A DNA stretch of 64,000 nucleotides from Bacillota bacterium (GTDB lineage: Bacteria > Bacillota > DSM-12270 > Thermacetogeniales > Thermacetogeniaceae): positions 1 to 64,000 of the forward strand of contig JABLXW010000001.1 of the NCBI GenBank assembly GCA_013177945.1. Direction: 5' to 3'. The notes below the pieces were generated by a model that saw only the letters and a list, made by a program, of their open reading frames with translations, was not told the origin of the DNA and did no database searches. The translations under genes were made by a program, and so were the position numbers. How positions within the stretch are numbered: position 1 is the stretch's first letter; every line of letters begins with the position of its first letter. Positions 35,924 to 59,131 of this stretch are shown in pieces.

Positions 35924-35949
35924 ACCCCGTCCAGGCAGGCGGGGTTTTT
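35924..35949 (+). terminator. Expression-platform terminator of riboswitch 1
   Basis: CCCCG (35925-35929) and CGGGG (35940-35944) form a stem followed by five T, between the aptamer and the first gene. Confidence 0.85.
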
Positions 35950-35982
35950 GCTTTTTCCGAAGCCAGGGAGAGTGAGTGAACT

Positions 35983-37668: not shown

Positions 37669-37710
37669 TTTGGAAATAAATTTTAGAATTGAGGGAGGTT
37701 TGAATTTCTG

Positions 37711-38838: not shown

Positions 38839-38905
38839 GGCATAAAAATCTGCCGGGCCCGGCTTTTCGCAAGTCAGGCTCCCGCATGGGATGAGGTGAA
38901 TCCCG

Positions 38906-42320: not shown

Positions 42321-42551
42321 ATTCCCGACCTCCTTAGCATTTTCTATTAATTTACCACATTTAATTTACCACATTCACGCCTTTACATCCAAGAACCAGT
42401 TTGCCTCGATGCCTGCAATAACTTAAGAGAAATCGTGCAGCGCCTGCGGCGATGATCGCCCTGCGGCTGGTGGCGGAGCATTTCCGATAGTTTCACAAGG
42501 TGGAAAGCAGGAGTTTGTGGAGGAACAGCGAATGGTTCTTTAAAAGTGAAT

Positions 42552-42860
42552 ATGGTCGGAATGGGTTGCCTTGTTTGCACAGGGCTGAAAAGGGAATCAG
42601 GTGAAAATCCTGAGCGGTCCCGCCACTGTGATGGGGAGTTTCCGTACATGAGGCCACTGCCCCGCACTCAATGAACATGATCGCGGACGTGCTGGAGCGG
42701 TTCAAAAATCTGATGTTCGCTCAAGGCGTTCGGGCGGAAAGACAATTGAGTGCGGGGTGGGAAGGCGTATGGTGACGATGACCCAGAGCCAGGAGACCTG
42801 CCCGTTCCATCTGGCCGTAACCTGCCTACGCGGATAGGTAAGGAGGTTTTAGTCTTTCTT
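42552..42860 (+). ncRNA. Cobalamin riboswitch 2
   Basis: Core elements are GGGAATCAGGTGAAAATCC, GCGGTCCCGCCACTGTGA, GGGAAGGC and the B12 box GCCAGGAGACCTGCC (42788-42802). The 98-base extra arm (42660-42757) differs from that of riboswitch 1 at only two positions, while the rest of the aptamer differs much more. It controls the cobN-radical SAM operon. Confidence 0.95.
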
Positions 42861-42867
42861 TCGAGTG

Positions 42868-42893
42868 AACCCCGTCGTGGCAGGCGGGGTTTT
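42868..42893 (+). terminator. Expression-platform terminator of riboswitch 2
   Basis: CCCCG (42870-42874) and CGGGG (42885-42889) form a stem followed by four T, before the cobN start. Confidence 0.82.
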
Positions 42894-42929
42894 CGATTTT
42901 CATTTGACCTGTTAAAGGGGGTAGCGCTC

Positions 42930-45900
42930 TTGGGCTTCAAGATTTTGTTTTGCACTGCCATCGAAGGGGAACTGGTTACCTTAAGCAGAGCCGTAAGGTC
43001 CCTGATCTCTGAACACGGCCCCGTGGTCGAGGTCATTGCCCGCTCGAGGCGGGAACTCCAAAGCGCCGAGAAAATCGAGGAACTCCTCAAGATCGTCCCC
43101 CGGTGCCACCTGATTCTGCTCCACCTGATGGGCGGCCCCGATTCCCTGCCTGGCTTCAATCTGCTCACAGGACTGGCCCGGGAGAAAAACATTCCTCTGG
43201 CTGTGTTGCCTTCAACAGGGGATAATGTTTCCGAGTTGTTGGCCCTGAGTTCGCTTCCAGCCGACGAATACCGCCTCGTCTGCTCATATGTCAGCTATGG
43301 CGGTGAAGCCAACCTCAGAAACCTCCTCCTGTGGGCGGCCAACCGCTTCCTCAGCAAGGGCCCCCCGGTAGAGGAGCCAAAACCCCTGCCCTGGGAAGGC
43401 CTCTACCACCCCGACTTCCGGGAGGAGAGCGCTCTTATGGCGTACCTGGAGGAAAAGATCAAAGAAAAGAAGAGACCTGTAATCGGGATCCTCTTTTACC
43501 AGAGCTACTGGGTGGCGGGAAACACGAGCTTCGTTGACGAGCTGATCCGGGAAATCGAAGGCCAGGGAGGAATAGCCCTGCCAGTTTTCCTCTACGCCAC
43601 GCGAAACGACGAACTCGGATGCCGGGGGATCGAGTGGGCGCTCGCAAATTATTTCACCAGAGACGGCCAGCCCCTGGTCAATGCCGTGGTGACCACCCTG
43701 ATGTTCTCGCAAACAATGGCTACCCCCACCATCAACCGCCCGGCAGGAGAAAACTTTTACCGGAAACTAGGCGTTCCTTTGATCAAGGCCATCATCTCGC
43801 TCACTTCCTGCGCGGAGTGGGAGGAGAGCCTCCAGGGACTCGGCCCTCTCGACGTGGTGATGAGCGTCGCCCTCCCCGAGTTTGACGGTGCCCTGATCAC
43901 CGTTCCCATCGCCACCCGTGAGGAAGAAGAGCAGGACCCCCTTACCGGAGCAACGTTGAGCAGGTACTTCCCGGTAGGGGAGCGGGTGAAAAAGGTAGCC
44001 TCTCTGGCCTTGCGCTGGGCAAAGCTCAGGCACAAGCCTAACCGGGAGAAAAGGGTGGCCATCATCCTCCACAACTACCCGCCCCGCAACGACCGCATCG
44101 GCTGCGCCTTTGGTCTGGACACCCCGGTTAGCGTCCATCGCCTGCTGCTGGCGCTAAAGGAGAGGGGGTACCGCGTTGAAGACCTTCCCGCCGACGGGGC
44201 TGCGCTGATGGAGAAGATCTTGTCCGGCCTCACCAACGAGCGGGGCTGGCTCGACCCCAGGGAGCTGGAACGCCGGGCGGCAGCGCGGGTAGAGCAGGAA
44301 ACTTACGAAAAATGGTTTGCCGCTTTTCCGGCCCGGGCCCAGGAAATGCTGGCAAGAGATTGGGGTGACCCTCCTGGGGAGGTTTTTGCTTATGGAAAGC
44401 ACCTCCTCGTGCCGGGCGTCTTCCTGGGGAACATCTTCATCGGCATCCAGCCCGTGCGCGGCTTTCTCGAAGACCCCTCTCACATCTACCACAGCCCGGA
44501 CCTGGCGCCACCTCATCACTACCTTGCCTATTACCGGTGGCTGCGGGACGAATTCAAGGCCGATCTCGTCTTCCACATCGGGAAGCACGGCTCCCTGGAA
44601 TGGCTTCCCGGTAAAGGGATCGGGCTTTCCCAAGCTTGCTTCCCGGACCTTGTCTTCCCGGATCTGCCTCACGTCTACCCCTATATTATCAACAACCCCG
44701 GCGAGGGAACCCAGGCCAAGCGGCGCTCCCACGCCTGCATCATCGACCACCTCATCCCCGTGATGACCAGGGCCGACACTTACGATGAGCTGGCCGAAGT
44801 GGAGGCGCTGGTTAAGGATTACCACACCGCCAAGACCCTCGACCCCTCGAAGCTCCCGGCCCTGCGCGGCCTGATCTGGGAGCGGGTGAAGGCTGTCCAC
44901 CTCGACCACGACCTCGGCATCTCCAGGGAAGAAGCCGGGAAAGACTGGGAGAGCTTCCTGGAGCGCCTCCATACCTACCTCTGCGAAGTCAAGGACACCC
45001 TGATCCGTGACGGGCTCCATATCCTGGGCCAACCCCCCGAAGGTGACCGGCTCGTGGAGATGCTGCTTGCCCTCACCAGGTTGCCAAACGGGCCGGTTCC
45101 CTCCCTGCGCGAGCAGGTGGCCGGGTACTTGGGACACGACTACACCTCTCTTTTGGAAAACCCTGGATATTTTTCAGGTGAGCATAACTGCACCTACGGC
45201 GAGATCCTGGAAGAGATCGACAGGAAGGGCCGCGCCCTTCTCAAGGCTTTCGCAAGGGAAAACTACGCCCGGGAAAAAGCGGTGGATGTCACGAGGCAGG
45301 TGCTGGGAAAAGAAGACGAGGGGATCGGCCGGGTGCTGGCATATGTTGCCGAAACTCTGGTCCCGGCTCTCAGGGCCACGGAGCAGGAGCTTGTCAATTG
45401 TCTTACGGCCTTAGAAGGGGCCTATATTCCGCCCGGGCCCTCCGGGGCGCCGACGCGGGGGATGGCCGAGATCCTCCCGACCGGACGCAACTTCTACTCA
45501 ATTGACCCCCAGGCAATCCCCACCCGGGCCGCCTGGCATACGGGACAGGCGCTTGCCGATGCTTTACTGGAACGGTATCGCCAGGCTGAAGGGAAGTACC
45601 CTGAAAACATCGGGATGGTGATCTGGGCCACCAACACCATGCGGACAGGAGGTGATGATGTTGCCGAGGCCCTCTACCTCATGGGAGTCCGCCCGGTCTG
45701 GGAGAAAAGCGGGCGGGTCAAGGGATTAGAAGTAATTCCCCTCGAGGAGCTGGGGCGGCCGCGCATCGATATCACCATCCGGGCGAGCGGGCTTTTCCGG
45801 GATGCCTTCCTCAACGTGATTCACCTTTTAGACCAGGCAGTAGAAATGGTTGCCTCCTTAGACGAGCCTGAGGAGCTGAACTTCCTGGCTGCCCACGTGC

Positions 45901-46691
45901 AGGCGGAAGTGGAAGAAAAGGTGGGGGCCGGGATGGAACCGGAACGCGCCCGGAGAGAGGCCCTCTGGCGGGTTTTTAGCGACCGCCCGGGGTGCTACGG
46001 AGCAGGTGTAAGCAACCTCGTCACTGCAAAAAACTGGAAGGACGAAAAGGACTTTGCTGAGGTCTACATCACCTGGGGAGGCTACGCCTACAGCAGGCAG
46101 GCCTATGGTGAAGATGCCCGGGAGCCATTCCGCCGGCGCCTGGCGACTTTAGAGGCAACCGTGAAGAACGAAGACACCCGGGAGATCGACATGTTTGACA
46201 GCGACGATTTTTACTCTTACCACGGGGGAATGGTGGCAGCGGTGAAGGCTGTGAGGGGCTCTTTGCCGGCCTCTTTCAGCGGCGACAGTTCCGACCCGGC
46301 GCGGGTGCGGGTCCGCACGCTTGGAGAGGAAGCCAGGTTCATCTTCCGGAGCAGGGTTCTCAACCCCAAGTGGATCGAGAGCATGAAGAGGCACGGCTAC
46401 AAAGGGGCGGGAGACCTCTCCCACCTGGTGGAGGTGGCCTTTGGCTGGGACGCCACAGCCGAAGTATTGGAGGACTGGATGTATGAGGAGCTGGCGCGCA
46501 AATATGTCTTCGACCCCGCCATGCAGCACTGGTTTAAGGAGGTTAACCCCTGGGCCCTGCAGAACATCACTGAACACCTGCTGGAAGCGATTGAGCGGGG
46601 AATGTGGCAGGCGGGCCGGGAAATGGCGGAGGCCCTGAGGGACATCTACCTGGACATAGAAGCAGAGCTAGAGGCCCGGACCGAGAGCTAG
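42930..46691 (+). CDS. cobN: CobN-like cobaltochelatase large subunit
   Basis: The protein of about 1253 residues is an intact CobN/ChlH family member, with FHIGKHGSLEWLPGKGIGLS, NNPGEGTQAKRRSHA, ILPTGRNFYSIDPQAIPTRA and LNPKWIESMKRHGYKGA blocks. With ChlI/ChlD partners it would insert cobalt (or another divalent metal) into a tetrapyrrole in an ATP-dependent way. No I or D gene lies in this operon; the sets at 23267 and 25340 may be shared. The open frame extends into the riboswitch; TTG 42930 with AAAGGGGG about eight bases upstream is the sensible start. It is paralogous to the frameshifted gene at 28206. Confidence 0.93.
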   Translation: MGFKILFCTAIEGELVTLSRAVRSLISEHGPVVEVIARSRRELQSAEKIEELLKIVPRCHLILLHLMGGPDSLPGFNLLTGLAREKNIPLAVLPSTGDNVSELLALSSLPADEYRLVCSYVSYGGEANLRNLLLWAANRFLSKGPPVEEPKPLPWEGLYHPDFREESALMAYLEEKIKEKKRPVIGILFYQSYWVAGNTSFVDELIREIEGQGGIALPVFLYATRNDELGCRGIEWALANYFTRDGQPLVNAVVTTLMFSQTMATPTINRPAGENFYRKLGVPLIKAIISLTSCAEWEESLQGLGPLDVVMSVALPEFDGALITVPIATREEEEQDPLTGATLSRYFPVGERVKKVASLALRWAKLRHKPNREKRVAIILHNYPPRNDRIGCAFGLDTPVSVHRLLLALKERGYRVEDLPADGAALMEKILSGLTNERGWLDPRELERRAAARVEQETYEKWFAAFPARAQEMLARDWGDPPGEVFAYGKHLLVPGVFLGNIFIGIQPVRGFLEDPSHIYHSPDLAPPHHYLAYYRWLRDEFKADLVFHIGKHGSLEWLPGKGIGLSQACFPDLVFPDLPHVYPYIINNPGEGTQAKRRSHACIIDHLIPVMTRADTYDELAEVEALVKDYHTAKTLDPSKLPALRGLIWERVKAVHLDHDLGISREEAGKDWESFLERLHTYLCEVKDTLIRDGLHILGQPPEGDRLVEMLLALTRLPNGPVPSLREQVAGYLGHDYTSLLENPGYFSGEHNCTYGEILEEIDRKGRALLKAFARENYAREKAVDVTRQVLGKEDEGIGRVLAYVAETLVPALRATEQELVNCLTALEGAYIPPGPSGAPTRGMAEILPTGRNFYSIDPQAIPTRAAWHTGQALADALLERYRQAEGKYPENIGMVIWATNTMRTGGDDVAEALYLMGVRPVWEKSGRVKGLEVIPLEELGRPRIDITIRASGLFRDAFLNVIHLLDQAVEMVASLDEPEELNFLAAHVQAEVEEKVGAGMEPERARREALWRVFSDRPGCYGAGVSNLVTAKNWKDEKDFAEVYITWGGYAYSRQAYGEDAREPFRRRLATLEATVKNEDTREIDMFDSDDFYSYHGGMVAAVKAVRGSLPASFSGDSSDPARVRVRTLGEEARFIFRSRVLNPKWIESMKRHGYKGAGDLSHLVEVAFGWDATAEVLEDWMYEELARKYVFDPAMQHWFKEVNPWALQNITEHLLEAIERGMWQAGREMAEALRDIYLDIEAELEARTES

Positions 46692-46711
46692 GGCTGCGGG
46701 AGCGGGGAACG

Positions 46712-47824
46712 ATGAGAGAAGAGATCAGGTGCCTGATCCTGCTGGTGACCCGCGACTGCAACCTGGGCTGCCGCTACTGCTACGCCCTGGGGGGTGAAAA
46801 GAAAGACTACATGACTTGGGAGACGGCAAGGCGCGCCGTGGACTACGTCGCCGTAAGAAGCCGGTCTTTCAAGATCCAGTTTACAGGCGGGGAGCCCCTG
46901 CTGCACTTTCCCCTGGTCAAGAAGATAATCGCCTACCTTGAAAACCACCCGGGATCTGTTACCTTTCAACTCCAGACGAACGGGACCCTGATCGACCGGG
47001 CGCTGGCGCGGGAATTAAAGAGGCTGAGGATCGGCCTGGGGGTGAGCCTCGACGGGCCTCCGGAGGTGAACGATAGCCTGCGCCCTCTTCCCGGGGGCAG
47101 GGGTTCCACCATTGCCGTGATCCAGGGCCTCCAGAGCCTCGCCGCAGAAGGAGTCAGGGTGGGCGTGACAGCTGTTTTGACCGATGAAAGCACCCGTTCG
47201 CTGCCGCGCCTTGTGGAGCTCGCTTCTTACCTGGGCAACGTCCACGGGATTTCCCTCGATCTCTTGCGCCCCCTGGGCAGGGGAGCCGATTCCGGGGTGA
47301 GGGCGCCTGATCTCGACCTGCTCGAAAGCCGGGTGCGGGCGGCTCTTCACCGTGCGGAGGAACTGGCGCAGCTGGGAGGCCCCCGCGTCAGGTTTCGCGA
47401 GGCAGAAAGGCTGCGCCGCCAGCTGCTGCAGGAGGTGACAAAGGAACATTACTGCTACGCAACAACGTGCCAGAGCATGGCGGTGGTGCCCGACGGCTCC
47501 GTGTACCCCTGTGCCTCCCTCAGCGGTCTGCAAGAGTTTTTCCTGGGGAACATTGAAGACCCCAATTTTTCCCTGGCCAGGGCCCTGGAGGCAAAGAAGT
47601 GGTTCAGGCAAAGGAGGGGGCTGCCTGCAGGGTGCAAGGGCTGCCCCCAAAGCGAGTTCTGCGGGGGAGGCTGCCTGGTGCGGGCCTACGCCCACAAAGG
47701 CCGGGTGGATCGCCCCTATGAGGGAGACTGCCGCTTGAAGAAAATCTTTTGGGAGTGGGTGAGGCCATCTGAGAAAAATTTCGGAAGGATGGGAGGATTT
47801 TCGGTGGGGACGGCGAAGATCTAA
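46712..47824 (+). CDS. Radical SAM protein with SPASM-type C-terminal cluster domain
   Basis: The 370-residue enzyme has the radical SAM motif CNLGCRYC (Cys16, 20, 23), FTGGEPLLHF for SAM binding, and a C-terminal Cys-rich domain (CYATTCQSMAVVPDGSVYPC, then CKGC and CGGGC) that should hold auxiliary Fe-S clusters. SPASM enzymes usually modify peptides or proteins. It starts 20 bases after cobN under the same riboswitch, so its role should be linked to corrinoid supply. I see no obvious precursor peptide next to it. The last codons are duplicated at 57981. Confidence 0.92.
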   Translation: MREEIRCLILLVTRDCNLGCRYCYALGGEKKDYMTWETARRAVDYVAVRSRSFKIQFTGGEPLLHFPLVKKIIAYLENHPGSVTFQLQTNGTLIDRALARELKRLRIGLGVSLDGPPEVNDSLRPLPGGRGSTIAVIQGLQSLAAEGVRVGVTAVLTDESTRSLPRLVELASYLGNVHGISLDLLRPLGRGADSGVRAPDLDLLESRVRAALHRAEELAQLGGPRVRFREAERLRRQLLQEVTKEHYCYATTCQSMAVVPDGSVYPCASLSGLQEFFLGNIEDPNFSLARALEAKKWFRQRRGLPAGCKGCPQSEFCGGGCLVRAYAHKGRVDRPYEGDCRLKKIFWEWVRPSEKNFGRMGGFSVGTAKI

Positions 47825-47849
47825 TATTAGTGTTTTGCCAAACTGAATA

Positions 47850-48125
47850 GTGCGGAACAGGTGACCCCGGGAGCAGCATCCCGGGGGAGAGGGAAGCCGG
47901 TGCGAATCCGGCGCGGTCCCGCCACTGTGTGGGGGATCCGTCTTGCAAGATGCCACTGTCCGGCACTCAATGCTGGGTTCGGCAAAAATGGTAACTACCC
48001 AGCTCAAGTTTTGAGCAGCAATTGAGTGCCGGATGGGAAGGCGCAAGGTCGGAGATGAACCCGAGCCAGGAAACCTGCCTGTTCGACGGACACTGTTGAT
48101 CTACGCGAGATAGGGAGGTGTCTCT
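47850..48125 (+). ncRNA. Cobalamin riboswitch 3
   Basis: Core elements are GGGAAGCCGGTGCGAATCCGG, GCGGTCCCGCCACTGTGTG, GGGAAGGC and the B12 box GCCAGGAAACCTGCC (48065-48079). The extra arm is closed by TCCGGCACTCAAT and ATTGAGTGCCGGA. It is a near duplicate of riboswitch 4 (58063). It controls the surface-protein and ECF transporter genes 48337-56967. Confidence 0.95.
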
Positions 48126-48156
48126 TATGCTCGGTGTTTTTGCTCGAGCGAGAGAC

Positions 48157-48184
48157 GCCCCGGTTCGCGTAGGACCGGGGCTTC
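48157..48184 (+). terminator. Expression-platform hairpin of riboswitch 3
   Basis: GCCCCGGT (48157-48164) pairs perfectly with ACCGGGGC (48174-48181). The T-tract is poor (TTC then A), so termination may be weaker than in the other three. Confidence 0.65.
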
Positions 48185-48336
48185 AAAATTGTAAGGGGGA
48201 TTAGGGAAAAGGGGCGGCCGGAAAAGATAAGGGGATGTCTTCTGTGCTATCAAGAAGTTGAAGCTCTCCGAGACGCGGCCTGGCAAGAACTACCTGGAAG
48301 TAGCTAGCTGAAAGAAAATGAAGGGAGGAGAGAAAA

Positions 48337-51300
48337 GTGTACCGGCGCCGGGGCGCGCTGAAAAGCTTGAGTCTGGTACTGGTTTTGATCCTGGCTGCCG
48401 CTTTTCTGGTACCGGCGGCAAATGCCGGCACCAGCGGGGCACCGGCTTCACTTGTCGACAGTGCCGTGCAGTTTTTATACAAGGAATACACCCAGAAGGG
48501 AATCGACAACTCGGAGTACGGGGTCGGCTCCTACGCTCTTTACGTCTTGAAGCAGGCCGGCGTTGATGTCAGTTCCTGGGTGTACAACGGTCAGAAGCTG
48601 GAAGATACCGTGGTGGATGCTGTTTACAAGGACCTGCAGAACGTGGACAATATCAAGGCCAAGACCCTGGCCCAGGACCTGGTGGCCGTGCAGGCACTGG
48701 GGCGGGGCGACCTGGTCGGCCAGCTGTTAGAGGTTTTAAAAAAGAGGCAGACCGAGAACGGCTTTGATAACAATCCTCTCAGCGACCTGTCGGCCTTCGA
48801 CCTGCTGGGCCGGGCGGGAAGGATTGACGTTTTAAACGCAGCCTACGCCAGGGACTATATTTTAGGCCAGCAGCTTACGGTCAGCGATGATGTTTACGGC
48901 GCCTGGGGCGGAAGCTGGACGGACAAGGAAGGCACACACTACTTTGCCGACTTCATGGCCACCGCCCAGGCGGTGCGGGCCTTGCATTACCTCGACCCCA
49001 CCGGGAGCGATCCCTCGGTCCGGGCAGCGATCTACAACGGCCTGGCCTGGATGCAGAAACAGCAGCAGGCCGACGGTAAGTTCGTGGCTAATTGGTGGGA
49101 GGACCCGGCCATTGACACCGCGGAAGTGGTCGTGACCTTAAAGGCACTGGGGAGGGATCCAGCTGAGTGGAAGAGCAGTGACGGAAAAACGGCCGTTGAC
49201 TACCTGCTGGAAAATGTCCTCAATCCTGATGGCAGCTTCGGCACCTCAGGGAACGCCATGGATGCCACCTGGGTGCTCAGTGCCTATAATTTGCTGAGTA
49301 CCCAGTTTTACATCAACCCCACGAATGTAATAAAGAACATTGGTGAAAAGCAGCAATTTTCGGCAGTCTGGCAGGATGCCTACGGCAACAAGTCTGACGT
49401 AACGCAGTGGGCCGCCTGGTCTGTGGCCGACAGCAGCATCGCCAGCGTCGACAACGGCGTTTACAAGGGCCTGGTCACAGCGCTCAAGGCCGGGCAAACA
49501 GTGGTCAGGGCCGTCTACAACGGGCTTACGGCCTCGGCGGCCCTGACCGTGGCGCCCTCAGGGGGACCGGGCGGCACTGCAACCACCTGCATGGTCGGGG
49601 TTGCCGTGGTGGGCAAGAATGGGGAACTCCTCTTTGGCCCGGGCTACGTGCTCCTCTCTAAAGAGGGCAGGTGGGGCCTGACCGCTCTCGGGGCGCTCCA
49701 TGCCACGGGTCTTCCCTACCGGCTCTCCGACAAGTGGGAGGGCTTCGTGGAGGAGATCGCCGGCCAGGCGGGCACCGGGATGGAGGGCTGGTGCTACACG
49801 GTCAACAATGCCATGCCCATGACTTCGGCCGACAAGTGCCAGGTGAAGGACGGCGATAAGGTGATCTGGTACTACAGCAAGGACATGAGCGCACCTGCCC
49901 CGAAGTGGGAGGACCTCGTAAACAAGGCTGCAGGTGCGATACCTGCTGAAGAAGCCCTGAAGAGCGTAGAAAACACCTTGTCCGACCTGCAGAGCGGCAA
50001 AGCTAGCGCCGGCCAGGCGGTATCCCGCCTCACGGAGTCCCTCGAGAAGCTTAAAGAATCCGAGGTTACTGAGGAGCTCAAAAGTAAGCTCTCCGAGGCC
50101 GCGCGCCTCCTCGTCGTGGCGCTGGCAAAGGTGCCTGAGAAGGCTTTAACATCTCAGGAAGAAGGAGAAAAAGTCAGCATCAAAATAGACGGCGAGATCC
50201 TGAAAGACCAGGTAGGTGCGCTCAAAAACGCCTCGCAGTTGGCCGCTAAGCTGCAGAAAATCGGTGTCTCCGAGGGCGCTGCTCTCGTTAAAGACGAGCT
50301 TGTGGTAGAGGTTCCGGATGCTTTTGCCGGCAGGAGCGAGCTGAGCACGGCCTTCCCCGCAAGCGCCGGCAGGGAAGTGGCTGAAGCCGGCCTCACCTTC
50401 GTTCTGCGGGAAAGGGAGGTCTCCCTCAGGCTGCCCGCGGAGGTCCTGAAGGCGGTGCTCGGGGTCTTTCCAGATGTGACCCAGGTGGAGGTTTCCGTCA
50501 AAAAAGTTGACAGCACCAAAGCTGGCTTCTTCGAGGGCGCCTCTCTGGTTACCAAGAGGGCGTTTGATCTCGAGGTCTGCGGGGTGACTCCGGAGGGGGA
50601 AAGGGGGAAACCGAGTGCCTTCCCTGAAAGACTTACAATTGCCTTCTCCCTTGAAGGAGTGGATCTCGGCAAGCTCGACTTGAGCAAGCTGGCAGTCTAC
50701 AGAAAGAAAAAAGACGGCTCCTGGGAATTCGTCGGGGGAAGCCTGAGCGCGGACGGGAAGTCCTTCACCTTTGAGACGGATCACCTGAGCCTCTACGCCC
50801 TCGCCGAGTTCTGGAAGACTTTCAAAGACACTGAAGACCACTGGGCGCGGGAGGCAATTGACTTCCTGGCAAGGAGGCTCATCATCAGGGGAGTGGGAGG
50901 TGACCGCTTTGCCCCGGACGAGAAGGTGACCAGGGCCCAGTTCGCCGCTCTCTTGGTGAAGGCGCTCGGGATCGAGGAAGGGCAGCCGGGCCTCCCGGTG
51001 TTTCAAGACGTTCCCTCCGACCACTGGGGCCGCGGAGCCGTGGAAGCAGCATTCAAGGCAGGGCTGGTTTCTGGCACGGGGAACGGGAGGTTCGAGCCCG
51101 AGAGGTGGATCACGAGGGAAGAGATGGCTGTGATGCTGGGGCGGCTCCTCGTGAAGCAGGGTGCAGCGGTGAAGCCGGACGCTTCCCAGGCGGCAGAGGC
51201 CCTCGCCAGCTACTCTGACAACGGCGCGATTTCTGCCTGGGCGAGGGAAGGAGTTGCCGCCTGCGTAAAGAGCGGCATCATCAGAGGCAGGTCCGCCTCC

Positions 51301-51384
51301 GAACTCGCACCCAAGGGCACTACCACCAGGGCAGAGGCTGTGGTTGTGGTAAAGAACCTCCTCCATTTTCTAAACAGGGTTTAG
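48337..51384 (+). CDS. S-layer-anchored transcobalamin/intrinsic factor-like protein
   Basis: This is a 1015-residue secreted protein with a signal peptide at 1-30 (ending VPAANAG). Residues about 35-315 contain alpha-alpha barrel repeats of the prenyltransferase/cobalamin-binding type (LNPDGSFGTSGNAMDATWVL). Residues about 325-406 look like a Big-2 bacterial Ig domain. Residues about 418-517 form a DUF4430 domain (VGVAVVGKNGELLFGPGYV...GWCYTVNN...VIWYYSKD). A helical and beta region follows to about 820, then three SLH repeats (about 828-1013) for cell-wall anchoring. Barrel plus DUF4430 is the domain pair that sandwiches cobalamin in transcobalamin and intrinsic factor. With riboswitch 3 upstream, surface cobalamin capture is the likely role. 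GTG 48337 has GGGAGGAG. Confidence 0.85.
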   Translation: MYRRRGALKSLSLVLVLILAAAFLVPAANAGTSGAPASLVDSAVQFLYKEYTQKGIDNSEYGVGSYALYVLKQAGVDVSSWVYNGQKLEDTVVDAVYKDLQNVDNIKAKTLAQDLVAVQALGRGDLVGQLLEVLKKRQTENGFDNNPLSDLSAFDLLGRAGRIDVLNAAYARDYILGQQLTVSDDVYGAWGGSWTDKEGTHYFADFMATAQAVRALHYLDPTGSDPSVRAAIYNGLAWMQKQQQADGKFVANWWEDPAIDTAEVVVTLKALGRDPAEWKSSDGKTAVDYLLENVLNPDGSFGTSGNAMDATWVLSAYNLLSTQFYINPTNVIKNIGEKQQFSAVWQDAYGNKSDVTQWAAWSVADSSIASVDNGVYKGLVTALKAGQTVVRAVYNGLTASAALTVAPSGGPGGTATTCMVGVAVVGKNGELLFGPGYVLLSKEGRWGLTALGALHATGLPYRLSDKWEGFVEEIAGQAGTGMEGWCYTVNNAMPMTSADKCQVKDGDKVIWYYSKDMSAPAPKWEDLVNKAAGAIPAEEALKSVENTLSDLQSGKASAGQAVSRLTESLEKLKESEVTEELKSKLSEAARLLVVALAKVPEKALTSQEEGEKVSIKIDGEILKDQVGALKNASQLAAKLQKIGVSEGAALVKDELVVEVPDAFAGRSELSTAFPASAGREVAEAGLTFVLREREVSLRLPAEVLKAVLGVFPDVTQVEVSVKKVDSTKAGFFEGASLVTKRAFDLEVCGVTPEGERGKPSAFPERLTIAFSLEGVDLGKLDLSKLAVYRKKKDGSWEFVGGSLSADGKSFTFETDHLSLYALAEFWKTFKDTEDHWAREAIDFLARRLIIRGVGGDRFAPDEKVTRAQFAALLVKALGIEEGQPGLPVFQDVPSDHWGRGAVEAAFKAGLVSGTGNGRFEPERWITREEMAVMLGRLLVKQGAAVKPDASQAAEALASYSDNGAISAWAREGVAACVKSGIIRGRSASELAPKGTTTRAEAVVVVKNLLHFLNRV

Positions 51385-51390
51385 GCATCC

Positions 51391-51451
51391 TGTTGATCCT
51401 TTCATCAACAGCCGGGGGACAGGCCCTTGCCCCCGCGGCTTGTCCCCCGGC
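51391..51451 (+). repeat. Two adjacent hairpins after the S-layer protein gene
   Basis: TGTTGAT/ATCAACA (51391-51410) is followed directly by a perfect 11-bp inverted repeat GCCGGGGGACA (51411-51421) / TGTCCCCCGGC (51441-51451). There is no T-run, so this may be a partial terminator or an mRNA stability element setting the ratio of the first gene to the transporter genes. The rest of 51385-51653 holds no gene. Confidence 0.6.
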
Positions 51452-51653
51452 GCATCTCCTCCCGCGTCCTGGCAATCGGGGAACTCTGGTCTTCGGCATC
51501 GTCCCTTGCCGCCTCTGCGGCGAGCTTGGGTTTTGACCTTTGCAGGGCCTTGAGCAACGGGTGAACGATTAAAGTCTTGAAGTGTTACAGTTTTGAAGCA
51601 TTAGAGGAGGCTGAAGCTATGGGTCTTCTTCAGAGGACAGGAGGGGGAATTGC

Positions 51654-52319
51654 GTGAAGCGACTCTACGTGGTGCCGCTTTTGCTGCTCTTGCTGGGCCT
51701 GCTGGTGCCGCTCTTCTACGCCTCAAAGGAAGACCGGCAGGGCCCGCCAAACTCTCCCGGGCAAACCAGAGTAGAAGTCAAAGAGGGCCCGGAGGAAAGT
51801 GCTTCCAAGACCGGACCCGTTAGCCAGAACGGTGCCGTGGCGCAAGCCCCGCCGAAGCACCTGCCGGGCGAGAAGACCGGGCAGGCAACAAAAGCGGTGC
51901 CGACCCAAAAGAAAACGGGAGAGGAAAGGAGCGAGGGGGTGTCTGACAAGACGCCAGGGGCCGCTGACGGCGCGGTTGCAGTAGGCGTTGCGGTGGTGGG
52001 AAAGGACGGCGAGCTCCTTTTCGGTCCTGCTGAGGTCAGGGTAGCAAAAGAAAGCACATGGGGCACCACCGCCCTCGGTGCCTTGGATGCCACGGGGCTG
52101 CCTTACACCATGTCTGCAAGGTTTCCGGACTTCGTGGAAGCGGTCGCCGGCCAGCGCAACCGCGGCCAGTCCGGCTGGATGTACAAAGTTAACGAGGAGG
52201 TCCCGCTGGTTGCCGCTGCCAAAAGGATCGTGAAGCAGGGGGACCGGGTGATCTGGTGGTACAGTCGAGACATGAGCCAGGCTTCCCCCCGGTGGGATGA
52301 TTTGGTAAGGAAAAACTGA
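51654..52319 (+). CDS. Membrane-anchored DUF4430 (transcobalamin beta-domain-like) protein
   Basis: The 221-residue protein has one N-terminal membrane helix (about 4-23), a polar Pro/Lys/Glu linker of about 80 residues, and a DUF4430 domain at about 107-215. The domain closely resembles that of the S-layer protein: VGVAVVGKDGELLFGPAEV, LGALDATGLPYTMSARFPDF, SGWMYKVNEEVPL, VIWWYSRDMSQASPRWDDLV. It has no barrel of its own. It may hand cobalamin from the S-layer to the membrane transporter, perhaps together with the barrel-only protein encoded next. GTG 51654 has GGAGGGGG upstream. Confidence 0.85.
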   Translation: MKRLYVVPLLLLLLGLLVPLFYASKEDRQGPPNSPGQTRVEVKEGPEESASKTGPVSQNGAVAQAPPKHLPGEKTGQATKAVPTQKKTGEERSEGVSDKTPGAADGAVAVGVAVVGKDGELLFGPAEVRVAKESTWGTTALGALDATGLPYTMSARFPDFVEAVAGQRNRGQSGWMYKVNEEVPLVAAAKRIVKQGDRVIWWYSRDMSQASPRWDDLVRKN

Positions 52320-52334
52320 AGGGAGTGCAAATTT

Positions 52335-53699
52335 GTGAAAAGAATAGCGTGTTTCCTGCTGGCGATTGCCTTTTGCGCGGCAGTTGCCTTTCCCGCATCT
52401 GCCTCGCCTGTATCCTCGCCTCAGGCCGGAGAAGCCCTGAAACGGGCAAAAAGCTACCTTCTGAAATTGGAGAAGGAGAGAGGAGTGCTTTCTCCCTGGA
52501 GCTACATAGCGCTGGCCGCGTCCGGTGAGAACCTCGGCGGCAGCCGCGTATCCCGGGCCTGCGAACTCCTCGGGAGCGATGAGGAATTGGCCTCCGGAGA
52601 GATGAACACCTACTGCCTGCTGGTCTTTACCTTGCTCGCGGCCGGGCAGGATCCCTTCAACTACCGCGGGAAAAACATTGTGGAGATCATCCAGCAGGCC
52701 CAGCTTCCCAGCGGCAAGTTCGCCGACAACGTAAAAACGGGCGGGGAGGACCTGGTCAACTCCCACATCTGGGCGGTTCTTGCCCTCAAAGCCGCCGGCG
52801 CCTCCGTGCCGGACCCCGAGGGGGCGCGCCGGTGGCTCGCCGGCCGGCAGCACGAAGACGGCTCTTTCTACTGGAACGCCCGCGACCGGAAAACCGCTGA
52901 TGTGGACTCCACAGGAATGGTTCTGATGGCCCTGGGCGCCCTGGGAGAGACGCAGGAAAGCCCGGTTGTCCAGAAAGCGGTCCGCTACCTGCAGAGCGTG
53001 CAGAAGGCAAGCGGCGGTTTTGAGTCCTGGGGGGCCGAGAACCCGGAGTCCTGCAGCATGGTGATCTTAGGGCTGCGCACCGTCGGGATCGATCCCCAGG
53101 ATCCGGCCTTCCGGAAGCCTGAAGGCGACCCCGTCACCGCCCTGCTCCGGTTTCAGCTGCCCGACGGCTCTTTTGAGCACATTGAGGGCGGGGGGGTGAA
53201 CGAGATGGCCACCCACCAGGCATTGATGGCCCTCGACGCCCTGCTTTCCGGGGAGATCTTCTGGACGCGGCTCAAGAGAAAGGCAGGGCTCGGAGGCAGA
53301 GAAGAGCTTTCTGTAAGGTTCCGGGTTGGGAAGAAGTGGTACGTGACCTCGCGGTCCGGGCAGGAGGAACGGCACGAGATGGATGCCGTCCCGTTCGTCG
53401 AAAGCGGCCGCACCTTCGTCCCCGTGCGCTACCTGGCGCTGGCTATGGGCGTGGCGGAGAGGGACATCCTCTGGGACGGCAAGAACCGGACGGTGACGCT
53501 CAGGCTCGGCAACACGGCCGTCAGGCTCACCGTCGGAAGCAGGACTCTCTACGTCAACGGCCGGTCGAGGGGGATGGACGTGGCCCCGGTCGTCCGGAAC
53601 GGCCGCACCTACCTGCCCGCGCGCTACGTGGCCGAGGCCTTCGGGTACAGGGTCGACTGGAACGAGTCCTTAAAAGAAGTCCTGATCACACTGCAGTGA
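52335..53699 (+). CDS. Secreted alpha-alpha barrel protein with copper amine oxidase-N-like domain
   Basis: This is a 454-residue secreted protein with signal peptide 1-24. Residues about 28-315 hold barrel repeats of the prenyltransferase/cobalamin-binding type (ARRWLAGRQHEDGSFYWNA, KASGGFESWGAENPESCSMV, LPDGSFEHIEGGGVNEMATH). Residues about 340-454 match the copper amine oxidase N-terminal-like domain (VPFVESGRTFVPVRYLALAMG twice), a wall-associated module of Firmicutes unrelated to catalysis. It has the alpha part of a transcobalamin but no DUF4430, the reverse of the gene just upstream. The two may act together. GTG 52335 follows the previous stop by 15 bases. Confidence 0.82.
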   Translation: MKRIACFLLAIAFCAAVAFPASASPVSSPQAGEALKRAKSYLLKLEKERGVLSPWSYIALAASGENLGGSRVSRACELLGSDEELASGEMNTYCLLVFTLLAAGQDPFNYRGKNIVEIIQQAQLPSGKFADNVKTGGEDLVNSHIWAVLALKAAGASVPDPEGARRWLAGRQHEDGSFYWNARDRKTADVDSTGMVLMALGALGETQESPVVQKAVRYLQSVQKASGGFESWGAENPESCSMVILGLRTVGIDPQDPAFRKPEGDPVTALLRFQLPDGSFEHIEGGGVNEMATHQALMALDALLSGEIFWTRLKRKAGLGGREELSVRFRVGKKWYVTSRSGQEERHEMDAVPFVESGRTFVPVRYLALAMGVAERDILWDGKNRTVTLRLGNTAVRLTVGSRTLYVNGRSRGMDVAPVVRNGRTYLPARYVAEAFGYRVDWNESLKEVLITLQ

Positions 53700-53714
53700 A
53701 GGAGAAGCAATAAA

Positions 53715-54623
53715 ATGCTTGACCGCTTATTCTATGAGGACAGGGATGTATTGCTTCAGGACCTCCACACCGTTGCCCTGCTGGGGTACCTGGGAGTGCT
53801 CTTTGTCCTGGCTCTGCTCTTCTCTCACCCCCTCTATCTGCTGGCCGTCCTGGCGGCCGGGGCGCTCGGAGTGGCGGCCGCCGGGGCCCTGGAAAAGTGG
53901 GAGTTTTACCTGAAGTTCGGCCTCTGGATGGCGCTCCTGATCATGGTCCTCAACCCCCTCGTCTTCCACGCTGGAAAAACCGTCATCTGGCAGGCCGGGC
54001 CGGTAAAGGTCTGCCTCGAGGCAGTGTGCTATGGTGCCGCCATGGGCGTGAGGCTGCTCGCCGTTTTGACGGTCTGCTGCCTCGGGAGCGCAACCGTCCA
54101 CCCCGACAAGTTGCTCGCCCTTTTTTCCCGCTTCGCCTATAAGTCTGCCCTCGTGGCCGCCCTTGCCACGAAGATGCTGCCTGCTGCTGCCAGGGACCTG
54201 GCGAACGCCCGGGAAGTCCTCCAGGTGCGGGGTGTGGACTTCGAGGCGGGAAGTTTCAGGGAGAAGCTGAAAAAGCATTCGTGGCTGTTCGACATCCTCC
54301 TCGTTTCTTCGCTCGAAGGCGCCCTTCAGATTGCCGAGGCGATGCAGGCACGGGCCTTCGGCAGCGGGCCGCGGTCCTGCTACAGGCGAGAGCTGGCGCG
54401 GCCCCGGGACGCAGTGTGCCTCGCCGCGAGCCTCCTCGCCCTCGCTCTTTCTGCTTACGCCAAGGCTTCCGGTTCTGGGGATTACACCTACTACCCCCGG
54501 CTGGCGCCCCTGGCCGACGGCTCTTCCCTCATCCTGCTTCTGGGCATTCTGCTGGCCCTTTCGGTGCCGGCAATCTTGAGTTGGGGGTGGAAGCATTGGC
54601 CCTGTTTAAGATCGAAGATCTGA
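53715..54623 (+). CDS. ecfT: ECF transporter T component
   Basis: The 302-residue membrane protein of the EcfT/CbiQ family has hydrophobic helices in the first 120 residues and the last 60, and a cytoplasmic coupling region with the two short motifs (REVLQVRGVDFEAG and AEAMQARAFGSGPR) that dock onto the ATPases. It is the energy-coupling scaffold between the fused ATPases (54596) and the S component (56275). ATG 53715 has GGAGAAGC eight bases upstream. Its 3' end overlaps the ATPase gene by 28 bases. Confidence 0.9.
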   Translation: MLDRLFYEDRDVLLQDLHTVALLGYLGVLFVLALLFSHPLYLLAVLAAGALGVAAAGALEKWEFYLKFGLWMALLIMVLNPLVFHAGKTVIWQAGPVKVCLEAVCYGAAMGVRLLAVLTVCCLGSATVHPDKLLALFSRFAYKSALVAALATKMLPAAARDLANAREVLQVRGVDFEAGSFREKLKKHSWLFDILLVSSLEGALQIAEAMQARAFGSGPRSCYRRELARPRDAVCLAASLLALALSAYAKASGSGDYTYYPRLAPLADGSSLILLLGILLALSVPAILSWGWKHWPCLRSKI

Positions 54624-56302
54624 CCTACTCCTACCCGGACGGAGACCGCCCGGCCTTGAAGAACATCAACCTGGAGATCGAGGAAGGAGAACTGCTGCTG
54701 GTAGTAGGGGGTTCGGGCTCCGGGAAATCCTCCCTGGCGCGCCTTCTGGCAGGGCTGGTTCCTCACTTTTACGGGGGAAGGCTGGAAGGCAGGGTGCTCT
54801 TCAGGGGAAAGGACCTGCGGGAACTCGACCCGCGCCTTTTGGCTGCTCGCGTGGGTGTTGTTTTCCAGGACCCTGAAAAGCAGCTGGTCATGACTTCTGT
54901 GGAGGCCGAGATCGCCTTCGGCCTGGAAAACCTTGGCCTGCCGCAAGAAGAGATGTCCCGCCGCATCGCGGAAGTCACGGGTTTTCTTGGTCTTTCATCC
55001 CTGAAGGAAGAGTTCACTGCCAGCCTTTCGGGGGGCCAGAAGCAAAAAGTAGCCCTCGCGGCGGTCCTGGCGATGCAGCCGGAGGTTCTCATTCTAGACG
55101 AGCCGACCTCGCAGCTCGATCCCGTGGCCGCTGAAGAGTTTTTCCACCTCGTGGAGCGCCTCAACAAGGAGATGGGGTATACTGTAGTCCTGATCGAGCA
55201 GCGCCTGGAAAGGTGCTTCCACCTCGCCGACCGGCTCGTGGTGATGGAAGAAGGAGAAGTCCTCAGGTGCGGTCGGGTAGAGGAGGCGGCGCGGTGGCTG
55301 GTCGAAAACCGCCTTCCCTTTATCCCTCCTGTGGCCAGGTTTTTCGCCTCTCTGGGCGCGCCCGCCCTGCCCCTCACGGTAAAAGAGGGGCGGAGAGAAC
55401 TGAGAAGGCTTCTCGAGGACATCCCCCTCTCCGCGGGGCCCGGACCCCGAGAGCTTCAAGCGGTTCTGCCCCGGAAGAAGGAGCCCCAAGCCCAGGATCT
55501 GGTTGAGCTGAAGGGCGTTTGGTTTACTTACCCGAACGGCAGGGAGGTTCTGCGAGGGGTGAGCCTCGAGGTGCGGGCCGGGGATTTCGTGGTGATCATG
55601 GGGGAAAACGCGGCTGGCAAGACCACCCTCCTGAAAAACATGGTGGGGCTGCTGAAGCCGGGGCGCGGTAGGGTTCTTCTTTTGGGCAGGGACACGCGCG
55701 CTGTTTCCCTGCCGGAGCTGGCGCGCGGTGTCGGCTATCTTTCTCAGAATCCCAACGACTACCTTTTCCAGGACACGGTGGAAGACGAACTCCGCTTCAC
55801 CCTCGACAGCCTCGGTCTCGAGGACAACGGGGTGGTCGACGCCACTCTGGAAAGGCTCGGGTTGATTGCTCACCGGAAAGCCAACCCCCGCGACCTGAGC
55901 AGCGGGGAGCGCCAGCGGGTGGCGCTGGCCTCTGTGCTTGTGGCGCGGCCGCGCCTTTTAGTTCTCGACGAGCCGACGAGGGGTGTTGACTGCCGCCTGA
56001 AAAGAGAGCTCGGGCTTTTCTTAACGGCGCTTGCCGGAGAAGGCGTGGGCGTGGTGGTAGTAACCCACGATGTGGAGTTCGCGGCGGAGTACGCCAGGCG
56101 CGTGGTCGTGATCAGCGGCGGCAGGGTAGTCTGCGAGGGCTCCAAGCACGAGGTTCTCGGGGGTTCCCTTTTTTATTGCCCCCAGATGGCGAGGCTGTTC
56201 AGGGGCTACGTCGAGGGTGTGCTCACCGTAGAAGAAGGAATCGAAAAACTCAGCAGGAAAGGGGTTTTCGGCCGGTGTCTGGCGGTAAAGGCAGGCTCCT
56301 GA
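54596..56302 (+). CDS. ECF transporter ATPase with two fused ABC domains
   Basis: The 568-residue protein carries both ATPases of an ECF module. The first has Walker A GGSGSGKSS, VFQDPEKQLV, LSGGQKQKV, LILDEPTSQLD and EQRLERCF; the second has Walker A GENAAGKTT, LSQNPNDYLF, LSSGERQRV, LVLDEPTRGVD and VTHDVEF. Fusion fixes a one-to-one ratio. TTG 54596 has GGGGGTGG upstream and lies inside ecfT. The open frame extends further 5', but that part is only ecfT in another frame. Confidence 0.93.
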   Translation: MALFKIEDLTYSYPDGDRPALKNINLEIEEGELLLVVGGSGSGKSSLARLLAGLVPHFYGGRLEGRVLFRGKDLRELDPRLLAARVGVVFQDPEKQLVMTSVEAEIAFGLENLGLPQEEMSRRIAEVTGFLGLSSLKEEFTASLSGGQKQKVALAAVLAMQPEVLILDEPTSQLDPVAAEEFFHLVERLNKEMGYTVVLIEQRLERCFHLADRLVVMEEGEVLRCGRVEEAARWLVENRLPFIPPVARFFASLGAPALPLTVKEGRRELRRLLEDIPLSAGPGPRELQAVLPRKKEPQAQDLVELKGVWFTYPNGREVLRGVSLEVRAGDFVVIMGENAAGKTTLLKNMVGLLKPGRGRVLLLGRDTRAVSLPELARGVGYLSQNPNDYLFQDTVEDELRFTLDSLGLEDNGVVDATLERLGLIAHRKANPRDLSSGERQRVALASVLVARPRLLVLDEPTRGVDCRLKRELGLFLTALAGEGVGVVVVTHDVEFAAEYARRVVVISGGRVVCEGSKHEVLGGSLFYCPQMARLFRGYVEGVLTVEEGIEKLSRKGVFGRCLAVKAGS

Positions 56303-56967
56303 TCGTGTCCGCGGCCGGGGTCCTTGCCGTGGCTTTGCTGGCCCTGACGGTTTCGAAGAGGGATTGGGGTTTCTTGTGCGTTGCCTTCGTGTGCGGTGCC
56401 CTTGCCTTTTGGTACTGGTGCTTCGAGCGGAGCACGGCCTCCTCCCGGGAGGTAGGGGTGGTCGCCGTCCTCGGAGCCATCGCCGCCGTCGCCCGGGTGC
56501 CCTTCGCCGCCCTGCCGGGTATCCAGCCCGCCACTTTCCTGATCATCGCCGCAGGCTTCGTCTTCAGGCCTCTTGCAGGCTTCATGGTGGGCGCGACTGC
56601 GGCTTTTGTGTCCAACTTTTTTCTCGGCCAGGGCCCCTGGACCCCCTGGCAGATGCTTGCCTGGGGCCTCGCGGGAGCAACTGCGGGGTGGCTGAAGACC
56701 GCTTTCCCCCGCCACGGGCGCCTCATAGCAGCCCTTTTCTGCTTTGCCTGGGGTTACCTGTACGGGTGGATCATGGACTTCTGGTTCTGGACCGCCTTTA
56801 TCAATCCCCTTACCTGGAAGTCTTTTCTGGCAACGTACGCCGCCAGCTTTTGGTTTGATACCTTTCATGCGCTGAGCAACGCGGGTTTTTACCTGCTGCT
56901 TGGATCCCGGGTAATTAAGGTGCTCGAACGCTTTCAGAAAAAAATTCACCCAATTTACCGCTGGTAA
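56275..56967 (+). CDS. ECF transporter S component, probably for cobalamin
   Basis: The 230-residue membrane protein has about six helices. Its ECF-S features are a small-residue helix GVVAVLGAIAAVARVPFAAL, LPGIQPATFLIIAAGFVFRP and MVGATAAFVSNFFLGQGPWT, the pattern used to dock S components on EcfT. Cobalamin is inferred from riboswitch 3 and the transcobalamin-like neighbours; B12-specific ECF S proteins (CbrT group) are known in Firmicutes. GTG 56275 overlaps the ATPase gene; GTG 56305 is also possible. A fragment of a related 3' end lies at 59124. Confidence 0.82.
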   Translation: MSGGKGRLLIVSAAGVLAVALLALTVSKRDWGFLCVAFVCGALAFWYWCFERSTASSREVGVVAVLGAIAAVARVPFAALPGIQPATFLIIAAGFVFRPLAGFMVGATAAFVSNFFLGQGPWTPWQMLAWGLAGATAGWLKTAFPRHGRLIAALFCFAWGYLYGWIMDFWFWTAFINPLTWKSFLATYAASFWFDTFHALSNAGFYLLLGSRVIKVLERFQKKIHPIYRW

Positions 56968-57069
56968 TATAAAATTAAGGATAAAACACTGGACAACAAA
57001 TTATCAAGGAGTATGGTACATTATTGTCAACTAAATACTTTTTGGCCCGGGTTCCCCTGCCTGAAGCAA

Positions 57070-57186
57070 GGGATAAAAGGGAATCAGGTGAAAATCCTGG
57101 ACGGTCCGGCGTTTTCGTTAAACCCACTGTCTCTTTTCCTTTCTGTATCCGGCAGAGTTTTGCCGGAGTTTTTTTGGCCCGAAAAA
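57070..57186 (+). ncRNA. Degenerate cobalamin riboswitch half plus terminator
   Basis: AAAAGGGAATCAGGTGAAAA and TCCTGGACGGTCC match the first half of riboswitch 2, but the CGCCACTGTGA segment is reduced to CCCACTGT after an unrelated insert, and no B12 box follows. A terminator CCGGCA (57149-57154) / TGCCGG (57161-57166) with seven T comes next. Bases 57118-57186 recur at 59270-59338 with one mismatch. It is probably a dead riboswitch. Confidence 0.6.
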
Positions 57187-57259
57187 GCGTACGGTACGGG
57201 CGCTGATTGTGGAATTTAAAAAGTCAGGAAGCTGGCTCAAAAATGCCTAATGATTGTCC

Positions 57260-58050: not shown

Positions 58051-58062
58051 TTTGCAGAACTG

Positions 58063-58340
58063 AATAGTACGGAACAGGTGACCCCGGGAGCGGCACTCCC
58101 GGGGGAGAGGGAAGCCGGTGCAAATCCGGCGCGGTCCCGCCACTGTGTGGGGGATTCGCCTTGCAAGATGCCACTGTCCGGCACTCAATGCTGGGTTCGG
58201 CAAAAATGGTGACAGCCCAGCTCAAGTTTTGAGCAGCAATTGAGTGCCGGATGGGAAGGCGCAAGGTTGGAGATGAACCCGAGCCAGGAAACCTGCCTGT
58301 TCAGCGGACACCGTTGATCTACGCGTGATAGGGAGGTGTT
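58063..58340 (+). ncRNA. Cobalamin riboswitch 4
   Basis: This is a near duplicate of riboswitch 3: GGGAAGCCGGTGCAAATCCGG, GCGGTCCCGCCACTGTGTG, GGGAAGGC and B12 box GCCAGGAAACCTGCC (58283-58297), with the same extra arm. All core elements look intact, but the gene it controls (58494) is only a fragment, so it may now be an orphan. Confidence 0.95.
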
Positions 58341-58404: not shown

Positions 58405-58493
58405 CATTTAACGGGGCTTTAAGTTGCTTCCCGGGCAGAAACGAATTGAAATACGAAGGAGAATACCAATACAACTGGAGGTTAAGTAGACCT

Positions 58494-58938
58494 ATGGAAG
58501 CGAAAAGCAAGGTTATTTATGCTTATGGTCTCATCCTGGTGTTGATTTTCACCCTGGGCTTAGGTCAGCTTGCCCTTGCCCCGGCGATTCAGGCAGCAGG
58601 AATTAAGGAAAGACGAATTACCATTACCGACTCGACAGGCCGTTTGGTCCGGGTTCCCTGCCCGCCCAGGCGGATTATTTCTGTTAACGGCAACGCCTCG
58701 GAGTTGATTTGCGCCTTTGGGGCAGGAAAGAAGATTATTGGAATTTCTGATACAACTAATTTTCCTCCGCAGCTAAAGGATAAGGCAAAAGTAGGAAAGG
58801 TCATGACACCCAGTATAGAAAAAATCGCGGCATTAAAACCTGATCTCTTCATTGCATACGGAAGCGGCATGGCGCTTAAACAGGAGATCGTAAGCAAGCT
58901 GCAGAAACTTGGCATTCCTGTCGTGCTCCTGGACTGCG
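58494..58938 (+). pseudogene. 5' half of a BtuF-like binding-protein gene
   Basis: ATG 58494, behind ACTGGAGGT, begins a signal peptide (VIYAYGLILVLIFTLGLGQL) and the N-terminal lobe (ITITDSTGRLVRVPCPPRRI, VGKVMTPSIEKIAALKPDL, QKLGIPVVLLDC). It is closest to the broken gene at 20164. After LLDC at about 58936 the sequence switches to an unrelated gene, and the frame ends at 59009. Over half the protein is missing, so it cannot be a working binding protein. Confidence 0.8.
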
Positions 58939-58939
58939 G

Positions 58940-59131
58940 GGTGAACTCACGCCAGGAATGGCCGAAGCCATCGCAAAAAACAGAGCCAAAAAGATTCTTT
59001 TGCCCTTGACTCCTGTCCAGGTAAAAGTGGTGGGGATGGAAGAAGAGGCGGAAACCAAACCTTTAAATCACCTGGTGGCAAGGCTGGTCGCAAGGCTGGA
59101 AGAGATTGCGGAGCGTGAAGCTGGTAATTAA
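58940..59131 (+). pseudogene. 3' fragment of a DUF3842-family gene
   Basis: In the frame ending at TAA 59129-59131 the sequence reads GELTPGMAEAIAKNRAKKIL, then LPLTPVQVKVVGMEEEAETK and a helical end. This resembles the C-terminal part of DUF3842 proteins (GEITP.MAEAI..S.AKKILIP). The N-terminal nucleotide-binding-like half is absent. It is fused directly to the btuF fragment. Confidence 0.6.

Follow-up and report, generated by a model that had tools for sequence, protein, structure and literature searches.

We examined a 64,000-nucleotide stretch of DNA (hereafter, the window) from a Bacillota bacterium of the family Thermacetogeniaceae (contig JABLXW010000001.1, positions 1 to 64,000, forward strand) and found at 47.8-57.0 kb a locus that is very probably an operon by which a monoderm anaerobe scavenges corrinoids (vitamin B12-type compounds). 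Behind a cobalamin riboswitch lie six genes of the same strand, which encode an SLH-domain surface protein with an alpha/alpha barrel and a DUF4430 domain, a second DUF4430 protein, a separate barrel protein, the coupling subunit EcfT, a fused EcfAA' ATPase, and the S component of an energy-coupling factor (ECF) transporter (Table 1). This gene content, listed by a first-pass annotation of the same DNA, was recovered by cmscan, Pfam, profile, and structure searches. The accompanying domain list was accurate as far as it went, but three features were absent from the annotation: a hairpin at 51411-51451, the immunoglobulin-like (Big_2) domain of the first protein, and Cu_amine_oxidN1 in the third. 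We computed the gene and domain content, the structural class, the riboswitch match, the homology of the S component, and the conservation of the unit directly, and present them below together with the uptake route that they suggest.

Riboswitch and import module

The aptamer at the head of the operon scored 109.8 bits against RF00174 (curated cut-off, 31.5 bits) and is one of six cobalamin riboswitches above the cut-off in the 2.7-Mb host genome. Both DUF4430 domains found in this whole genome lie at the locus. The B12 regulation claimed by the first-pass annotation is supported by this match and by the riboswitch linkage in other genomes. Downstream of the aptamer, a hairpin at 48154-48184 has a loop able to pair with an upstream segment, and the sequence makes it plausible that this hairpin and its alternative pairing are the expression platform of the riboswitch; a terminator scan downstream of the aptamer found no T-run (U-run) terminator. 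The strong hairpin in the spacer that separates these two surface genes, SLH and DUF4430, may be an attenuator or a processing site, and possibly sets different expression levels for the surface and membrane parts of the system.

The nearest solved relative of the S component is CbrT (6FNP_A), which was matched with an E-value of 2e-9 by the single sequence and 3.9e-22 by a profile built from 24 sequences; the second match, 4HZU_S, was far weaker (0.02 and 0.38, respectively). Thus, the module combines a CbrT-homologous S component with a T subunit and two ATPase domains, the composition of an ECF-type B12 transporter, and sequence comparison supports the earlier assignment as a predicted CbrT-type B12 importer. 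The starts of its last two genes are estimates, probably at ~54597 for EcfAA' (the longest open reading frame starts at 54281) and at a GTG codon at ~56275 for the S component (longest frame from 56176). CbrT binds and transports cobalamin and cobinamide (PMC5997447), and the ECF-CbrT complex of Lactobacillus delbrueckii (6FNP) shares with the locus a homologous S component, EcfT, and two ATPase domains. In contrast to that transporter, the module described here is dedicated and fused (EcfAA') and is accompanied by extracellular capture proteins.

The same ECF genes could be read as an importer of cobalt or another metal for B12 synthesis, encoded next to unrelated S-layer proteins. CbiQ/CbiO-type subunits are named after cobalt transporters, and cobalamin riboswitches also control cobalt uptake (PMC3766115). 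We rejected this reading because the S component is CbrT-like; in addition, the operon showed no CbiM/CbiN-type subunit, ECF genes are accompanied by DUF4430 and barrel proteins throughout the phylum, and transcobalamins are the top structural matches of the surface protein. Cobalt import is therefore a highly improbable function of the module.

Surface proteins and the transcobalamin-type fold

The SLH protein starts with a signal peptide, and its ectodomain was confidently modeled by AlphaFold from 28 homologues with a mean predicted local distance difference test (pLDDT) score of 89. In a Foldseek search of 350,542 PDB chains with this model, transcobalamin and haptocorrin occupied ranks 1-8 and intrinsic factor ranks 13 and 15, whereas for a homologue lacking Big_2 (pLDDT of 91) the top 15 matches were all transcobalamin, haptocorrin, or intrinsic factor. 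The TM-scores of these transcobalamin-type matches were modest (0.35-0.48). The protein encoded at 48337-51384 joins an extracellular DUF4430/SLBB domain to an alpha/alpha toroid in one chain, and this barrel and beta domain have the transcobalamins as their nearest structural neighbors. The models thus support the presence of a transcobalamin-type domain pair, and the protein is predicted to bind corrinoids.

Animal transcobalamin, haptocorrin, and intrinsic factor likewise carry an N-terminal alpha/alpha barrel and a C-terminal DUF4430-type beta domain in one secreted chain. The bacterial system differs from them by the inserted Big_2 domain, the SLH anchor, and the split extra copies, and the docked geometry that sandwiches the ligand is absent from the models. 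The transcobalamin-like structure expected by the first-pass annotation was therefore confirmed for the two domains and their top PDB matches, but not for their docked arrangement. The surface anchoring that it proposed agrees with the SLH domains found here and on 40 of 41 fused barrel-DUF4430 proteins from named genomes.

The two domain types recur as separate proteins in the next two genes. The N-terminal hydrophobic segment of the DUF4430 protein is a probable membrane anchor, judging from its sequence; most DUF4430-only proteins inspected open with a hydrophobic segment that looks uncleaved, and EcfT is encoded within 3 kb downstream in 52 of 56 cases, many of them directly adjacent. The separate barrel protein ends in a Cu_amine_oxidN1 domain (Pfam E-value of 6e-34). 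We infer that the DUF4430-only and barrel-only proteins would form a two-chain (split) transcobalamin.

Several observations weigh against corrinoid scavenging by such proteins. The overall root-mean-square deviation from the transcobalamin-type matches was 20-26 Å for both models, as unliganded chains, because the barrel and the beta domain do not pack together the way they do in ligand-bound transcobalamin; the docked geometry was also sought, and was absent, in the model of the homologue lacking Big_2. Big_2 separates the barrel from the beta domain here and in approximately half of the homologues. Profile searches of PDB sequences with DUF4430 and with the barrel returned no transcobalamin chain, so that direct sequence similarity to animal transcobalamin or intrinsic factor was not detected by this approach, and the DUF4430 profile gave weak beta-grasp matches only. 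The DUF4430-repeat proteins of Collinsella (L135-L148) are encoded away from any cobalamin riboswitch, barrel, or ECF gene, indicating that DUF4430 by itself is not diagnostic of B12; these proteins may differ in ligand. The strong hairpin behind the SLH gene leaves a single transcript for all genes in question. Finally, the organism is apparently able to make corrinoids, as the biosynthesis genes CbiG and CbiC are present in its genome, and it has a BtuCD-like transporter under another riboswitch of the window (riboswitch 1). The latter facts suggest that the uptake system supplements synthesis, and it may serve a particular corrinoid.

Instead of complete B12, the imported compound could be an incomplete corrinoid or B12 precursor (cobinamide, cobyrinate, or a lower-ligand base). 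Haptocorrin-type binders have broad specificity, the genome encodes corrinoid biosynthesis, and the second corrinoid-type importer under riboswitch 1 leaves room for a division of labor. Furthermore, cobinamide is also taken by CbrT and BtuF (PMC5997447). On the other hand, the S component is CbrT-like, no link to a CblT-type (lower-ligand) component was seen, and the sequence offers no discrimination between cobinamide and cobamide. We consider precursor salvage unlikely overall, yet the most serious of the competing explanations.

Conservation and neighboring loci

We assessed the linkage of riboswitches, surface proteins, and ECF genes in other genomes. The class of the host comprises 20 genomes, all of one family, in which 39 of 55 DUF4430 matches lie within 10 kb downstream of a cobalamin riboswitch on the same strand (1.2 expected). 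An evenly drawn sample of 101 genomes from the phylum contained 31 genomes with DUF4430, including 28 outside the class. A same-strand cobalamin riboswitch upstream of the DUF4430 gene was found in 24 of these 28 genomes, compared with ~0.2 expected as estimated from riboswitch density (genome counts), and 25 had an ECF gene in the DUF4430 locus, one of them with only a weak S-component match. Among the four genomes lacking an upstream riboswitch, two have DUF4430 on short contigs, and the other two (G071 and G080) have no detectable cobalamin riboswitch genome-wide. In at least five genomes (G025, G034, G046, G075, and G083), the sole riboswitch found genome-wide heads the DUF4430 locus.

The same pattern was observed for 56 named loci from Moorella, Desulfofundulus, Pelotomaculum, Syntrophomonas, Thermosediminibacter, and others; for the contig scans a narrower DUF4430 alignment was used, the first alignment being too diverse. 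An upstream riboswitch was present at 42 of the 56 loci, and 12 of the remaining 14 start within 800 bp of a sequence end. All 60 riboswitch matches were on the strand of the gene. EcfT was found at 53 loci, the barrel-DUF4430 fusion at 48, and a separate barrel gene at 31. These data, which uphold the neighborhood linkage expected from the locus, support the conservation of the riboswitch, surface proteins, and ECF genes as a unit.

Related surface genes also occur in archaea. In Methanogenium, a DUF4430 protein and a barrel adjoin genes whose best-scoring matches are BtuC and a corrinoid ATP-binding cassette (ABC) ATPase, and a BtuF-like binding domain forms one chain with the barrel; at an Archaeoglobaceae locus, a DUF4430/barrel pair is followed by a BtuF-like protein (for BtuC, BtuD, and BtuF alike, these best-scoring matches fall below the curated cut-offs). 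The archaeal loci thus resemble the bacterial locus in placing a DUF4430/barrel pair by a B12-type importer, and differ in having BtuC/BtuD/BtuF-like ABC genes in place of the ECF genes and, in Methanogenium, the barrel-BtuF fusion. The combination of the capture module with two unrelated B12-type importers, ECF and BtuCD, argues that the ligand is a corrinoid.

This distribution bears on the possibility that the transcobalamin-like fold serves another role, such as binding of cell-wall polysaccharides or adhesion, and that its B12 link is a regulatory coincidence. The alpha/alpha barrel is common to terpene cyclases and glycosidases, beta-grasp domains bind many ligands, and the Collinsella proteins show that DUF4430 occurs free of B12 links. 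However, coincidence can hardly account for the upstream riboswitch outside the class, the position of DUF4430-only genes upstream of EcfT, or the archaeal coupling to BtuCD-type genes, making such a role improbable.

Table 1. Positions of the features of the probable corrinoid scavenging locus and of two related archaeal loci
Feature	Position	Strand	Basis or description
Cobalamin riboswitch aptamer RF00174, operon head	47842..48096	+	cmscan, 109.8 bits, E 1.3e-26
Candidate expression platform	48101..48184	+	Inverted repeats I1 and I3; GACGCCCCGGT/ACCGGGGCTTC hairpin, loop side TCGCGTAG, alternative partner upstream CTACGCGA
Secreted S-layer protein	48337..51384	+	Pfam; profile; AlphaFold/Foldseek; orthologues
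Alpha/alpha barrel of the SLH protein	about 48427-49281	+	Profile search and structure; unnamed by Pfam
Big_2 (Ig-like) domain of the SLH protein, between barrel and DUF4430	about 49300-49548	+	Pfam
DUF4430 domain of the SLH protein	49675-49881	+	Pfam, E 6e-13
Three SLH domains of the SLH protein	about 50818-51384	+	Pfam
Strong hairpin in the spacer between the SLH and DUF4430 genes	51411..51451	+	15-nt arms, 11-nt loop
DUF4430 protein with N-terminal hydrophobic segment	51654..52319	+	Pfam DUF4430, E 9e-14
Secreted alpha/alpha-barrel protein without DUF4430	52335..53699	+	Pfam squalene-cyclase/prenyltransferase toroid, 8e-10
EcfT, CbiQ-type transmembrane coupling subunit, CbrV-like	53715..54623	+	Pfam CbiQ, E 2e-12
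Fused EcfA-EcfA' double ATPase, CbrU-like	54597..56302	+	Two ABC_tran domains; ECF_ATPase TIGR04520 above cut-off
CbrT-like S component	56275..56967	+	Pfam ECF S component; 6FNP_A match
Archaeal DUF4430 and alpha/alpha-barrel genes by BtuC/BtuD/BtuF-like genes	L128:7242-13187; L146:8708-14038		

Further cobalamin riboswitches lie on both sides of the operon. Downstream of riboswitch 1 (35596-41145 with its genes) come a nitrilase-like gene, a gene for a candidate binding protein without an NCBIfam match at 1e-15, and BtuC/BtuD-like genes, which together make a putative second corrinoid-type import locus. Riboswitch 2 (42546-47824 with its genes) precedes a CobN-type chelatase gene overlapped by a gene resembling SPASM radical SAM peptide maturases; this gene pair recurs in locus L038, and L050 contains the radical SAM gene. 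The riboswitch of the operon (riboswitch 3) and riboswitch 4 (58059-58314) are nearly identical, with few differences over the aptamer, which suggests a recent duplication. The frame at 58446-59009 behind riboswitch 4 resembles the beginning of a BtuF-like protein but stops prematurely. Just past the S component gene, a weak riboswitch match (57036-57254; 29 bits, below threshold) is probably a decayed copy. In another genome of the same family (G016, loci L059-L067), we counted 26 cobalamin riboswitches and 13 DUF4430 matches, some of the latter in open frames of more than 2,000 amino acids, an apparent large expansion of riboswitch-linked surface proteins. A search of a viral structure library gave no significant match, and a plasmid search gave no match.

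Earlier predictions and the proposed uptake route

The idea of a bacterial transcobalamin-like scavenger is an old one, and the first-pass annotation overstated its novelty. Burroughs et al. (2007; Biol Direct 2:4, PMC1796856) described an SLBB-alpha/alpha toroid fusion in Desulfotomaculum, fusions with immunoglobulin folds in Moorella, and operons in which another SLBB paralogue accompanies CbiO-like and CbiQ-like genes; their figure of architectures and neighborhoods includes Desulfotomaculum reducens and Syntrophomonas wolfei. They predicted that such proteins scavenge B12 or its precursors, and proposed that animal transcobalamin was acquired from such Gram-positive bacteria. CbrUVT is likewise already a recognized annotation for dedicated B12 importers (PMC6593275, PMC8123684). 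The locus has in common with the 2007 operons the DUF4430/SLBB domain with a toroid, the second SLBB protein, the CbiO-like ATPase, and the CbiQ-like protein, all in one operon. It departs from the host tendency noted in that paper, in which hosts usually lack B12 synthesis and its key genes, since CbiG and CbiC are present. Neither a riboswitch nor S-layer anchoring appears in the text of the 2007 paper, and its description of the operons names no S component. The locus is thus a well-supported case of the kind predicted in 2007, to which the present analysis adds the quantified riboswitch link, the CbrT-type S component, SLH anchoring, and quantified conservation, as well as the placement of a probably anchored DUF4430 protein ahead of EcfT and, in archaea, the barrel-BtuF fusion beside BtuCD-like genes. 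A literature search found no experimental report of a bacterial transcobalamin; subscription journals were thinly covered by it, and an unseen report is possible.

Corrinoid scavenging by the operon would proceed as follows. At low intracellular adenosylcobalamin the riboswitch would permit expression, judging from the behavior of the RF00174 family. The SLH-anchored protein, with both transcobalamin-type domains, would capture a corrinoid at the S-layer and pass it to the membrane-anchored DUF4430 protein, which the separate barrel protein may complete, and the ECF module with its CbrT-type S component would import it using ATP. ECF transporters are understood to take their substrates directly on the S component, so that a binder-dependent relay would be a different loading mechanism. 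We are evenly divided on whether this transporter relies on dedicated extracellular binders, with an S-layer transcobalamin delivering to an anchored split transcobalamin and the latter to the S component, and with the same module attached in archaea to BtuCDF-type transporters.

The surface B12 binders BtuG and BtuH belong to Gram-negative bacteria, act ahead of outer-membrane transport, and by their description consist of domains unrelated to those of the locus proteins. They likewise capture B12 at the cell surface ahead of a transporter in Bacteroides (DUF4465; PMC6143338, PMC13398666). If the relay is true, monoderm anaerobes would gain a counterpart of this surface capture, and the view of how ECF transporters load their substrates would widen. 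The proposal that animals obtained transcobalamin and intrinsic factor from Gram-positive sources builds on the 2007 prediction of a bacterial transcobalamin-like scavenger, which has apparently never been put to the test. With a riboswitch, a CbrT-type S component, and conservation across the phylum, the case for a corrinoid as the ligand becomes much stronger, and cultured species such as those of Moorella, Desulfofundulus, and Syntrophomonas now permit a direct test.

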